From positions 1-30,125 of the IMG/VR virus record IMGVR_UViG_3300024518_003049: 30,125 nucleotides of DNA; one strand, 5' to 3'. The stretch is from a virus. The notes under the pieces were generated by a model, which saw only the letters and a program-made list of their open reading frames with translations, had not been told where the DNA came from and did not search any database. Made by a program: the position numbers and the translations under genes. This document shows, piece by piece, positions 1,210 to 8,649 of this stretch (the first letter of the stretch is position 1; each line of letters begins with the position of its first letter).

Positions 1210-1390
1210 GATTGAGTGGAGGATTGATGACGGGAACGAGGTTTATCTAATGCTCCCTACTGGTGACCACCCATCTCTTTTCAATGATGCTTACATCGGC
1301 GGCTTCATGGACCTCCAGCACCTAATGACCGAACTGCACGATAGGATTCTGCCGGAGGTTGAGGCGGAGATTGATAGGAGGGAGAAATGA
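1196..1390 (+). CDS. Hypothetical acidic protein (64 aa)
   Basis: The start follows a strong AAGGAGG Shine-Dalgarno about six bases upstream. The 64-aa product is acidic, with a helical C-terminal half (MTELHDRILPEVEAEIDRR). Its stop overlaps the ATG of the DNA methyltransferase, so the two are probably translated together. I recognise no family. Its position directly before the methyltransferase is the only functional hint. Confidence 0.6.
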   Translation: MPKPKIEWRIDDGNEVYLMLPTGDHPSLFNDAYIGGFMDLQHLMTELHDRILPEVEAEIDRREK

Positions 1391-2400
1391 TCTACGGCAG
1401 TCTGTTCTCTGGAATAGGTGGCATCGATCTTGGCCTAGATCGTGCCGGCATGTCGTGCGCTTGGCAGGTTGAGATTGACCCGTATTGCCGCAAGGTATTG
1501 GAGAAGCATTGGCCCGGCGTTGACCGATTCAACGATATCAAAAAGTGCGGGGCGCATAATTTGAAACAAGTTGATTTGATTGCCGGCGGGTTTCCTTGCC
1601 AAGACATTTCTTTAGCCGGAAAGGGAGCAGGAATTGAAGGAGAAAAAAGCGGATTGTGGTCCGAATATAAGCGGATCATTTGCGAGCTACGACCGAGAAT
1701 CGTCGTCGTGGAAAACGTTTCAGCACTCCTTGTTCGGGGGCTTGAGCGTGTACTCGGGGATTTGGCCGAGAGCGGGTATAATGCTGAGTGGGATTGTATA
1801 CCTGCGGCCGCCGTTGGCGCCCCTCACCGACGTGACAGGGTGTTCATTGTTGCCTGCTCCAGAAGCCAGCAACACCAAGGCCGTCGCCAAACGAAGCGGC
1901 GGGAGGCCTCCGAGGTCGTTTCTGTGGCCAACACCCAACACGGTAGGATTTCGCAGCGACGGCGAGCTAAGGATCTTGGCACGATCTTGCCAGACAAACG
2001 AGGAATACGCAGCCATGTCACACAGGGCGGCGAGCAAGAAACGGGAGGCCCATTGGCCGACGCCGACAGCATGCGAATGGAAGGGGCGGGGGCCGAACAG
2101 CAAACAGCAGGGACTTGCGGAGAAGGTGAAGGCAATACACCGGGGGGCGCGGGCGGTTCCAACCCCAGACGCAAATTGTTGGAAGGGCGGGAATCACCGT
2201 GGGCAACTTACCGATCCCTCCTGCGGAGTAACGCCGAATGGTGGGCAACTGAACCCGACGTGGGTCGAGTGGCTAATGGGGTTCCCCGCAGAGTGGACCG
2301 CCTTAAAGGATTAGGAAACGCCGTAGTCCCGCAAGTGGCTGAGTTTATCGGCAGGATGATCATGGACTATAACAAGGAGAGCAAAAATGAAAGCGAATAA
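1387..2400 (+). CDS. C5-cytosine DNA methyltransferase
   Basis: This 337-aa protein is an S-adenosylmethionine-dependent DNA cytosine-C5 methyltransferase. The ordered motifs are visible: SAM-binding motif I (FSGIGGIDLGL, residues 7-17), catalytic motif IV (GGFPCQDIS with C71), motif VI (VVENVSAL, E109), motif VIII (APHRRDRVFIVA, about 145-156) and motif X (GLGNAVVPQVAEF, about 308-320). Residues 157-285, where the target-recognition domain should lie, are rich in R, Q, G and E and look loosely folded. A second reading frame with its own conserved-looking motifs covers this part. In a phage the enzyme probably methylates phage DNA to evade host restriction. No partner endonuclease is recognisable beside it, and the recognition site cannot be read from the sequence. 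Confidence 0.95.
   Translation: MIYGSLFSGIGGIDLGLDRAGMSCAWQVEIDPYCRKVLEKHWPGVDRFNDIKKCGAHNLKQVDLIAGGFPCQDISLAGKGAGIEGEKSGLWSEYKRIICELRPRIVVVENVSALLVRGLERVLGDLAESGYNAEWDCIPAAAVGAPHRRDRVFIVACSRSQQHQGRRQTKRREASEVVSVANTQHGRISQRRRAKDLGTILPDKRGIRSHVTQGGEQETGGPLADADSMRMEGAGAEQQTAGTCGEGEGNTPGGAGGSNPRRKLLEGRESPWATYRSLLRSNAEWWATEPDVGRVANGVPRRVDRLKGLGNAVVPQVAEFIGRMIMDYNKESKNESE
1634..2314 (+). CDS. Candidate overprinted protein in the +1 frame of the methyltransferase gene
   Basis: A 226-codon frame, with a TTG as the first possible start, lies wholly inside the methyltransferase gene in the +1 frame. Its product has motifs I recall from a common family of phage proteins: SSSWKTFQHSLFGGL, then IWPRAGIMLSG, then YLRPPLAPL, two WPTPT/WPTPN repeats, and a C-terminal LNPTWVEWLMGFPAEWT. 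The same DNA encodes the standard methyltransferase motifs in the other frame (for example GAPHRRDR and PDVGRVANGVPRRVDRLKGL). Both frames therefore look constrained. Alternatives are an unexpressed mirror of the methyltransferase codons or a product reached by frameshifting. The start codon is weak (TTG, with AAGGGAGCAGG upstream). Confidence 0.4.
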   Translation: MKEKKADCGPNISGSFASYDRESSSWKTFQHSLFGGLSVYSGIWPRAGIMLSGIVYLRPPLAPLTDVTGCSLLPAPEASNTKAVAKRSGGRPPRSFLWPTPNTVGFRSDGELRILARSCQTNEEYAAMSHRAASKKREAHWPTPTACEWKGRGPNSKQQGLAEKVKAIHRGARAVPTPDANCWKGGNHRGQLTDPSCGVTPNGGQLNPTWVEWLMGFPAEWTALKD

Positions 2401-2446: not shown

Positions 2447-3580
2447 ATGAGCAAGCAAAACACCAGATACACCGAAGAGTCGGCGCTAGACCCCTACGCA
2501 AAATATGCACTGAAACACAAGATCCTAACGAGGGCGCAGGAGGCCGAGATTGGGGCGAGGATACTTGAGGGCGACAAGGCCGCCGTTGACGAACTTGTGG
2601 TGGCAAATCTCCGGTTCGTCGCAAGCATAGCAAGTAGGATACTGTGGACCGGCCTGACCCTACAGCAGCGGGTTTCGTCGGGAAACCGGGGGCTGATAAC
2701 GGCCGCCGAAAAGTTTGACCACACCAAGGGCTTCAAGTTTGTTTCTTACGCTGTGTGGTGGATCAAGCAGGCGATCACAAGGGACGCGATAGTTGGCATA
2801 CACCCGGTAAACCTGCGCGGCAATACATCAAGGGACTACTTCGTATCAAGGAAGATACTCGACCGCCACTTTCAGAAAAAACACAGGGAGATGGACGCCG
2901 AGGAGCTTGCGCCATACCTGGACGGGAGCATGGCGAGGGCAACCGCCGTGATGGTTATGATAGGAGGACACAAGTCACTGGACGAGCAAATAATTGCCGG
3001 CGGTAAGTCAATGACCAGGAAGGAAACCCTGGTATCCAGGGAGGACCGAACTGACTTTGCAGCGGAACAGAGCAGCACAGTCAAGGCTCTGGACAAGGCA
3101 CTGGTAGCGCTTCCGGCGCGGACTCAGGACATGATCCGGATGCGCTACGGAGTTCAGCCATACGACAGGGAGCACATCCTGGGGGAGTGCGGGGTGAAGT
3201 ATGGGGTCACTAAAGAGCGGGCCAGGCAGATCATCGACGAAGGGATGGAGAACGCCGGCAGGCCCGGCAGGAACTTCGACTTCCTAAAAGCAAACAAGGG
3301 CGTCGTGAAAGAGGCCAAGAGGGCGGGGATAATAATACTAACAAAGGAGGAGAGAAAGAACGAAAAAACGAGGCAGTGCAAAGGCGCGTGTGGAGAGACA
3401 AAACCAGTAAGGCTTTTTGCAAGAAACAGGAACGGAGGGTTCGGCCATATCTGCAAGGAGTGTGACCCGCCAGAGAGCAACGAGGAAAACCTCAGAAAAA
3501 AGCTGATCAGCAGAGAAGGGGCCGCAAAGAAAAGGGCCGTAATTAGGGAACAGAAAATCAAACAAGGGATGGTTTCATGA
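2447..3580 (+). CDS. Sigma-70 family RNA polymerase sigma factor with C-terminal zinc ribbon
   Basis: This 377-aa protein has the layout of a primary-type sigma factor. Region 1.2/2.1 is at about 15-65 (ILTRAQEAEIGARILEGDK, then ANLRFVASIA). Region 2.2-2.4 is at about 70-115 (GNRGLITAAEKFD, then FVSYAVWWIKQAITR, the promoter -10 recognition and melting segment). Region 3 follows, and region 4 with a helix-turn-helix is at about 215-270 (ALPARTQDMIRMRYGV, then YGVTKERARQIIDEG). After region 4 comes an unusual extension of about 100 residues with a C-x3-C and C-x2-C zinc ribbon (C311, C315, C336, C339) and a basic tail. It should bind host core RNA polymerase and direct transcription of phage genes. 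Sequence after YAVWW and around region 4.2 differs from housekeeping sigma, suggesting different promoters. Confidence 0.9.
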   Translation: MSKQNTRYTEESALDPYAKYALKHKILTRAQEAEIGARILEGDKAAVDELVVANLRFVASIASRILWTGLTLQQRVSSGNRGLITAAEKFDHTKGFKFVSYAVWWIKQAITRDAIVGIHPVNLRGNTSRDYFVSRKILDRHFQKKHREMDAEELAPYLDGSMARATAVMVMIGGHKSLDEQIIAGGKSMTRKETLVSREDRTDFAAEQSSTVKALDKALVALPARTQDMIRMRYGVQPYDREHILGECGVKYGVTKERARQIIDEGMENAGRPGRNFDFLKANKGVVKEAKRAGIIILTKEERKNEKTRQCKGACGETKPVRLFARNRNGGFGHICKECDPPESNEENLRKKLISREGAAKKRAVIREQKIKQGMVS

Positions 3581-4708: not shown

Positions 4709-4991
4709 ATACTCAACGTGCGTCGAGTGTAAGGCCAGGCTTCCTTTTGAGCATCTGTCGAAAAACAGCATGTGCCGGGACTGTCTCTTGCTCAACAGTG
4801 AGGGGAGGTCGCACAGGATTGTGAGCAAGCACAAATGGAACGACATGATGCGTGACATTCTTCACGGTGAATGGCCGACACTAAAACCAAGGAATGCCGA
4901 GGAGAACAAAGAGATTCTGGAACAGGCGAGTAAAATCAAGCTCGGGAGCCTACACACAGGAATACGAGCCCGGAGAATTTACGATGGGTAA
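4701..4991 (+). CDS. Small zinc-finger protein (96 aa)
   Basis: I choose the GTG at 4701 because AAGGAGG lies at 4685-4691 with a suitable gap; a TTG at 4665 is a weaker option. The product starts VDKYSTCVECKARLPF and contains a second pair, CRDC, about 20 residues on. The CxxC-CxxC pattern resembles short phage zinc ribbons. The remainder is basic and helical. It overlaps the start of the HNH gene by eight bases. A role in nucleic-acid binding is likely but unproven. Confidence 0.6.
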   Translation: MDKYSTCVECKARLPFEHLSKNSMCRDCLLLNSEGRSHRIVSKHKWNDMMRDILHGEWPTLKPRNAEENKEILEQASKIKLGSLHTGIRARRIYDG

Positions 4992-5286
4992 AAAGAAGCC
5001 CAACACCCCAAGGAGCCAGATCAAGAACGGTATGCGCCAAATGTGGCTGCGGTCCAGAGAGAGGGCCGCAGCACTCAAGCGCACCGGCTACTGCTGTGAT
5101 GAGTGCGACGTCAAGCAATCAACAGCCAAGGGGAGGGAGGTCAAGATCCAGGTCCACCACATGGACGGGATAGACTGGGACGGCATTGTGGACCTGTTCA
5201 TTGAAAGGGTCCTGCAAACACCAGACAGGCTCCAGCCGTTGTGCAAGCCCTGCCACGACAAAGAACACGGCAAGGCCAAAAAGTAG
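4984..5286 (+). CDS. HNH endonuclease
   Basis: This 100-aa protein has the HNH nuclease layout: a first zinc pair (C38, C41 in CCDEC), the central HHMDG at residues 58-62 (catalytic histidine pair), and the C-terminal LQPLCKPCHDKEH at 83-95 with C87, C90 and H91. I use the ATG at 4984, which overlaps the previous gene; an upstream ATG would add 30 residues read out of that gene's coding region. HNH proteins in phages act in packaging, as homing enzymes, or in host DNA degradation. The packaging genes lie 13 kb away, so the role here is open. It is the last gene before the convergent terminator. Confidence 0.85.
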   Translation: MGKKKPNTPRSQIKNGMRQMWLRSRERAAALKRTGYCCDECDVKQSTAKGREVKIQVHHMDGIDWDGIVDLFIERVLQTPDRLQPLCKPCHDKEHGKAKK

Positions 5287-8003: not shown

Positions 8004-8429
8004 TTAAAACCCCATCCCTTCTTCACACAATGACAGGTGGCTATCTTCGCCGGTTATGATGTGATCCAGGAGAGAGATTCCAAGCAATTCCCCGCACTTG
8101 TCCAGGCGTTCGGTTAATGCTATATCGTCGGCCGATGGCCTAGGGCACCCTGACGGGTGATTGTGTGAGACAATGATAGCGGCTGCACCGTGTTTGATGG
8201 CCTCGCGGAAGACCTCCCTGGGATGCACCAGAGAAGCGTTGAGCGTACCAATGGAAACAATCCAGGGCGCGACAATCAACCGGTGCCGAGTATCCAAAAA
8301 TGCCACCTGGAAAGCCTCCCTACCTTCTGGCACATTGGGCAGGAAGTGAGGCACCGCATCCTCTGGCTGACAAATGACCGGGCGGGAATCAATCTTAAAC
8401 TTGCGGGCGGTTTCTCTTACTTTATACAT
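8004..8429 (-). CDS. RadC-like JAB-domain protein
   Basis: This 141-aa protein is essentially the JAB/MPN+ metallopeptidase-like domain of RadC. It has E38, the signature HNHPSG at 89-94 and PSADD to D102, together the zinc-binding JAMM motif of HNHPSGxxxPSxxD form, followed by LDHIITGEDSHLSL typical of RadC. The N-terminal helix-hairpin-helix of bacterial RadC is missing. I choose the ATG at 8429, which overlaps the upstream stop by eight bases. An upstream extension to 8582 would read a proline/cysteine-rich stretch antisense to nothing conserved and inside the neighbouring gene. RadC has no settled function; deubiquitinase-like or counter-defence roles for phage JAB proteins are possible but speculative. 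Confidence 0.85.
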   Translation of the reverse strand: MYKVRETARKFKIDSRPVICQPEDAVPHFLPNVPEGREAFQVAFLDTRHRLIVAPWIVSIGTLNASLVHPREVFREAIKHGAAAIIVSHNHPSGCPRPSADDIALTERLDKCGELLGISLLDHIITGEDSHLSLCEEGMGF

Positions 8430-8649
8430 CTTTGCTCGCTTTCGAAATAGCCGCAGCACGGGCGGACTCGGTGGGGCGGGTGTCAAGATCAAGACCGGAC
8501 AGGGCCCGCTTAATCGTGTAACCAGTGTATCCCATGTGATCGGACAGCATAAACCGGACACGGGGCAAGGGGTGACCGGCACGGAGAAAAAACAGAGTAT
8601 CCTCCTGGCACTCCTGGATAATGTCGGCGGTTGGTTTTTGGTCGGCCAT
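8422..8649 (-). CDS. Hypothetical protein (75 aa)
   Basis: The ATG at 8649 (MADQKPTADIIQECQ) has GGGAGG seven bases upstream. The middle, VRFMLSDHMGYTGYTIKRALSG, could be a small winged-helix or helix-turn-helix-like segment (YTGYTIKRALSGL), so DNA binding is possible. Its stop overlaps the RadC-like gene. I recognise no family. Confidence 0.55.
   Translation of the reverse strand: MADQKPTADIIQECQEDTLFFLRAGHPLPRVRFMLSDHMGYTGYTIKRALSGLDLDTRPTESARAAAISKASKDV

Follow-up and report, generated by a model that had tools for sequence, protein, structure and literature searches.

A conserved reading frame nested in a phage C5-methyltransferase gene and its probable role as a second enzyme subunit

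The methyltransferase gene and its nested reading frame

The DNA analysed here (the window, 30,125 nucleotides, positions 1 to 30,125 of IMG/VR record IMGVR_UViG_3300024518_003049) is a phage record in which terminase-, portal- and coat-like genes, as read from the ORFs, lie downstream of a C5-methyltransferase gene (Table 1). Profile searches matched frame 1 of this gene to PF00145 (E = 6.3e-48) and phrog_363 (E = 2.3e-85), and the C5-methyltransferase motifs I, IV (PCQ), VI (ENV), VIII (GAPHRRDR) and X (GNAVVPQ) follow one another in this order, confirming the normal motif content that an earlier, sequence-only reading had assigned to frame 1. The +1 frame is open over 1616-2311, while the third frame of this stretch is full of stops. 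The nested +1 ORF matched the phrog_1008 profile (E = 5.3e-29), and IWPRAGIMLSG, YLRPPLAPL, two WPTP repeats and LNPTWVEWLMGFPAEWT were all found where that reading had placed them. A scan with the +1 protein returned at least 592 relatives in IMG/VR. A PDB sequence search with the +1 protein and a fold search with its model gave no match, and profile and fold searches found no known fold or family for its N-terminal domain beyond the phrog_1008 group.

Table 1. Features of the methyltransferase locus in the window
Feature	Position	Strand	Description
C5-methyltransferase frame (frame 1)	1387-2400	+	337 aa; proposed alpha subunit with motifs I-VIII and X
Motif IV, GGFPCQDIS	1585-1611	+	Frame 1; placed by alignment
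Candidate internal start	1620-1636	+	AAAGGGAG followed by TTG at 1634
Nested +1 ORF	1634-2314	+	226 codons; proposed beta subunit with N-terminal domain, PTP repeats and motif IX
Two-frame region	1709-1854	+	Frame 1: motifs VI (ENV) to VIII (GAPHRRDRVFIVA); +1: WKT..IWPRAGIMLSG..YLRPPLAPL
Variable region	1882-2184	+	Frame 1: disordered linker; +1: WPTP repeats at 1925-1936 and 2054-2065
Motif IX	2249-2299	+	+1 reads LNPTWVEWLMGFPAEWT; frame 1 reads EPDVGRVANGVPRRV from the same bases
Motif X, GNAVVPQ	2314-2334	+	Frame 1 only; stop of the +1 ORF at 2314, just upstream

At the candidate internal start, AAAGGGAG pairs with the anti-Shine-Dalgarno sequence with a duplex energy of -7.6 kcal/mol, and the TTG is the sole usual start codon of the window's nested ORF upstream of the conserved core. 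Among the relatives, ATG codons with strong Shine-Dalgarno sites were present in 46%, compared to 23% in shuffles (z 8.9, computed without breaking at stops), an excess that lends support to translation from an internal start.

AlphaFold2 models, for which the input alignments comprised the window and IMG/VR loci, showed motifs I-VIII and X of frame 1 with confidence, and 213 of the 327 M.HhaI residues could be aligned to the frame-1 model (Z 23.5, rmsd 2.8). The linker at residues 166-266 had a pLDDT of about 35-40, below 50 throughout, in agreement with the disorder suspected earlier in the recognition part, and most of residues 285-299 (the motif IX stretch) were also below 50. Modelled alone, the +1 protein gave low confidence (mean pLDDT 61.5, pTM 0.28), which would be expected of a partner-dependent subunit, yet proves nothing.

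Other ORFs of the window were noted in passing. The ORF adjoining the methyltransferase (2447-3580, + strand, 377 aa) is sigma-70-like with a C-terminal Cys-rich tail, which is unusual for a phage of this size; a small ORF at 4894-5286 (+) shows the HNH-endonuclease-like pattern CDECD..HHMDG..CKPCHDKEHG, and an ORF on the opposite strand (8004-8582, -) contains the RadC/JAB-like motif SHNHPSGCPRPSADD.

Coding and selection in the two frames

The +1 relative lay inside the methyltransferase ORF, in the same +1 relation, in 80 of the 80 kept loci, and this relation was identical in all 92 loci of the first set. Since that set had been picked through the +1 frame, the test was repeated on loci fetched by the methyltransferase frame only, with a search profile derived largely from the first set, which leaves the two sets not wholly independent. 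Among the 76 loci fetched in this way with an intact methyltransferase core, 72 had no +1 stop over approximately 163 codons, whereas 4.1 would be expected from synonymous codon shuffles within the core. None of the 76 was open in +2 and at most 8% were open in any antisense frame, while in other genes of the same loci the +1 frame was open in 2% of 641 cases. The arrangement is thus as widespread in phage methyltransferases as the sequence-only reading had supposed, and the stops in relatives that it had named as evidence against a second protein do not break the frame.

Conservation of the +1 product was evaluated with profiles trained on half of the loci and used to score the other half, which gave a mean of 288 bits against 108 bits for synonymous shuffles, the real score being higher than all 40 shuffles in 85 of 85 cases. 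In the set chosen by the methyltransferase frame, the distal +1 part (PTP repeats and motif IX) exceeded all 50 shuffles in 76/76 loci, and the N-terminal part, overlapping motifs VI-VIII, did so in 55/76. This conservation goes beyond what the methyltransferase frame and its codon usage force, which speaks against the +1 motifs being mere annotation artefacts, and on these comparisons the +1 ORF is a real coding sequence.

Substitutions were analysed in 54 independent pairs, with each difference scored in both frames and bootstrapping over pairs, on a frame-blind nucleotide alignment that replaced a codon alignment guided by the methyltransferase protein, which had blurred the variable region. 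Upstream of the overlap, the baseline +1 ratios were 1.02 (NN/NS) and 0.68 (SN/SS). Over motifs VI-VIII, omega_ALT showed a moderate drop from this baseline, to 0.68 (NN/NS) and 0.34 (SN/SS), and omega_MT was 0.31 and 0.16, so that both frames were constrained with frame 1 dominant. Between motifs VIII and IX, omega_ALT was 0.20 and 0.09 and the frame-1 linker was near neutral (omega_MT 1.19 and 0.58), values that rest on fewer data than elsewhere, as only 12 pairs were alignable in the variable region. The motif IX stretch was the most constrained part of the +1 frame (omega_ALT 0.14 and 0.04), with partial constraint in frame 1 (omega_MT 0.77 and 0.24), and at motif X the constraint was back in frame 1 (omega_MT 0.14-0.24). 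Constraint was therefore not confined to frame 1, and by the measure of these substitutions both frames are coding and under selection. Of the two origins suggested earlier for the second product, overprinting is supported by this dual-frame constraint, and a product of frameshifting is less favoured.

Motif IX and the proposed division of the enzyme

The most conserved +1 segment is GGxLNPTWVEWLMGFPxGWTDL, within which motif IX (LNPxWVEWLMGFP) is near-invariant in 49 relatives, and the +1 product of the window ends in LNPTWVEWLMGFP. The assignment of motif IX was made through a single-frame relative on a Megaera plasmid (L101), in which the methyltransferase frame itself has LNPDWVEWLMGYPISW immediately ahead of motif X. 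This segment was aligned by phmmer to residues 270-314 of M.HhaI (motifs IX-X), as a weak second domain continuing a strong first one. By this alignment, the motif IX of the enzyme itself lies on the +1 protein, which is therefore probably a second subunit and not an unrelated phage protein, and the selection described above suggests that a polypeptide carrying this motif is made.

In C5 enzymes such as M.HhaI, the catalytic domain is built from motifs I-VIII and X, and the small domain from the recognition domain and motif IX. The two frames of the locus divide along this border, which favours a heterodimer with a nested small subunit, and we consider that the locus probably encodes a split, two-polypeptide C5-methyltransferase, one of its genes lying inside the other. 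Frame 1 would encode the large catalytic subunit, with motifs I-VIII, a disordered linker and motif X, and the +1 frame the small subunit, comprising the N-terminal domain, the PTP-repeat region and motif IX. The PTP-repeat region would take the position of the target-recognition domain of other C5 enzymes, and the frame-1 sequence overlapped by the +1 recognition and motif IX part would act as an open linker reaching motif X. The small subunit, translated from the putative internal start, would assemble with the large one as a heterodimer into a single enzyme, active only when both are present, and its purpose may be the protection of phage DNA. Each frame looks part ancestral and part novel, the catalytic motifs being those of frame 1 and the recognition region and motif IX those of +1. 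In the frame-1 alignment, VGRVAxGVPxRVDRL (VGRVANGVP) is conserved at the motif IX position and, given its partial constraint (the omega_MT of 0.24 is the NS/SS ratio), frame 1 may hold its own working substitute for motif IX.

Natural variants were found among the relatives. By pattern, 138 of 170 loci share the window's layout, with motif IX in +1 and motif X in frame 1. A different split is seen in Streptomyces phages phiBT1, RemusLoopin and Samy, Mycobacterium phage Eagle and contig L230: their frame 1 goes no further than motif VIII, and the recognition region and motifs IX and X come from the +1 ORF, which several of the phage records list as a second DNA methylase. At these loci, +1 is thus the sole source of the parts in question. 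Motif X is on +1 only in relatives such as L095, L230 and L267, the window having it in frame 1. L230 (2950-4012), where stops close frame 1 beyond motif VIII while an intact +1 ORF bears motif X, captures the split as it passes from one frame to the other. In the actinophages CheeseTouch, ReT1v, Fancypants, Neville and Sanjuju, motif IX is in the methyltransferase frame and the N-terminal part of +1 is still kept, so that the nested protein would do more than supply motif IX.

Rhodococcus phage ReT1v was considered as a standalone copy of the +1 gene and rejected, since its methyltransferase frame is intact and merely unannotated, and thus no free-standing +1 copy has been shown. The annotations of Rhodococcus phage ReT1v-2 and Vibrio phage 1.236.O (L102:1300-2470; L103:1263-1994) list the +1 ORF as a hypothetical protein and miss the methyltransferase, which is intact in the other frame.

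The persistence of the N-terminal part in actinophages that have motifs IX and X in the methyltransferase frame would also fit a +1 protein that is real but independent, for example an overprinted inhibitor or regulator whose likeness to motif IX is a relic of the copied frame, and an N-terminal domain that resembles no known fold or family except the phrog_1008 group is in keeping with this. We regard such a protein as rather unlikely, as motif IX is the most constrained +1 part (omega 0.04-0.14) and as +1 supplies exactly motifs IX and X where frame 1 is without them. Programmed +1 frameshifting, which would fuse the catalytic half from frame 1 with the recognition half from +1 in a single chain and leave no separate nested protein, appears less probable still. 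It would yield a one-chain enzyme in phages such as phiBT1 and Eagle, and the identical +1 relation throughout the first loci agrees with it; against this, the +1 sequence preceding any late shift site (YDPxTSSWRT..WPRSGMM) is conserved beyond shuffles, start codons with Shine-Dalgarno sites are enriched, and the commonest layout would need a second shift back to reach motif X. An open +1 frame arising as a by-product of methyltransferase codon usage and amino-acid make-up, with no protein behind it, is scarcely tenable: shuffled genes do retain an appreciable +1 profile score, but every real score lay above its shuffles, the open frames far outnumber the expectation, and omega_ALT is 0.04-0.20 between motifs VIII and X.

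The preferred reading, a split enzyme with a nested small subunit, could extend beyond this locus. We see the case as evenly poised that phage C5-methyltransferases of this large family are for the most part obligate two-subunit enzymes, with the DNA-reading subunit inside the catalytic gene, each frame half ancestral and half newly invented, and the split point sliding among phages. If the split enzyme is real, a very common phage gene annotated as one protein makes two, codon-optimised cloning of the visible ORF would destroy half of the enzyme, and methylases recorded as possibly inactive, as in the phiBT1 record, could be explained. Among long same-strand overlaps in phages, this one would be unusually widespread, and the relatives of the locus would offer a series of naturally occurring split points from which split methyltransferases could be built.

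Comparison with known systems

Earlier records touch on the nested frame in several ways. The family phrog_1008, labelled DNA methyltransferase, matches the nested ORF as well as the genes for second methylases in Streptomyces and Arthrobacter phages, but its label is silent on encoding inside another methyltransferase gene. The same nested +1 gene is drawn inside the cytosine methyltransferase of Paenibacillus phages Shelly (internal gene g55) and Diva (internal gene g49), whose records give no function or selection evidence for it. In the open-licence literature, the only overlapping gene found in phage methyltransferases was that of ShiLan, whose methylase gene, like that of the window, conceals a protein in a second frame. 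That element is a different one, a mobile insertion with HNH motifs, whereas the nested ORF of the window is no insertion, runs across the conserved core of the methyltransferase and had no HNH family match in profile searches.

Among C5 enzymes made of two polypeptides, M.EcoHK31I keeps motifs I-VIII and X on its large polypeptide and has motif IX alone on the smaller, second one; in M.AquI, part of the variable region and motifs IX and X are on the second polypeptide, and complementation between fragments of M.SssI is best when the C-terminal fragment starts between motif VIII and the recognition domain (PMC3404938). The window resembles M.AquI (CYCGRG) in that its proposed second subunit takes in motif IX and the distal variable region, but motif X, which M.AquI has on its second subunit, is on the first in the window, and the genes are nested. 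The layouts of phiBT1, Eagle, Samy and L230 resemble M.AquI. Frame 1 of the window has motifs I-VIII and X, as does the large polypeptide of M.EcoHK31I (YGGCCR), and LNPTWVEWLMGFP, aligned through the Megaera plasmid relative to motif IX of M.HhaI, gives the second ORF the motif carried by the smaller polypeptide of that enzyme. M.EcoHK31I is a bacterial restriction-modification enzyme, likened here by description, whereas the present pair is phage-borne, fully nested and very widespread. What is new here, as far as comparison of sequences goes, is the near-universal nesting in phages together with dual selection. The second gene of M.EcoHK31I overlaps the first in another frame, and the present locus would thus be the same trick on a far wider scale in phages.
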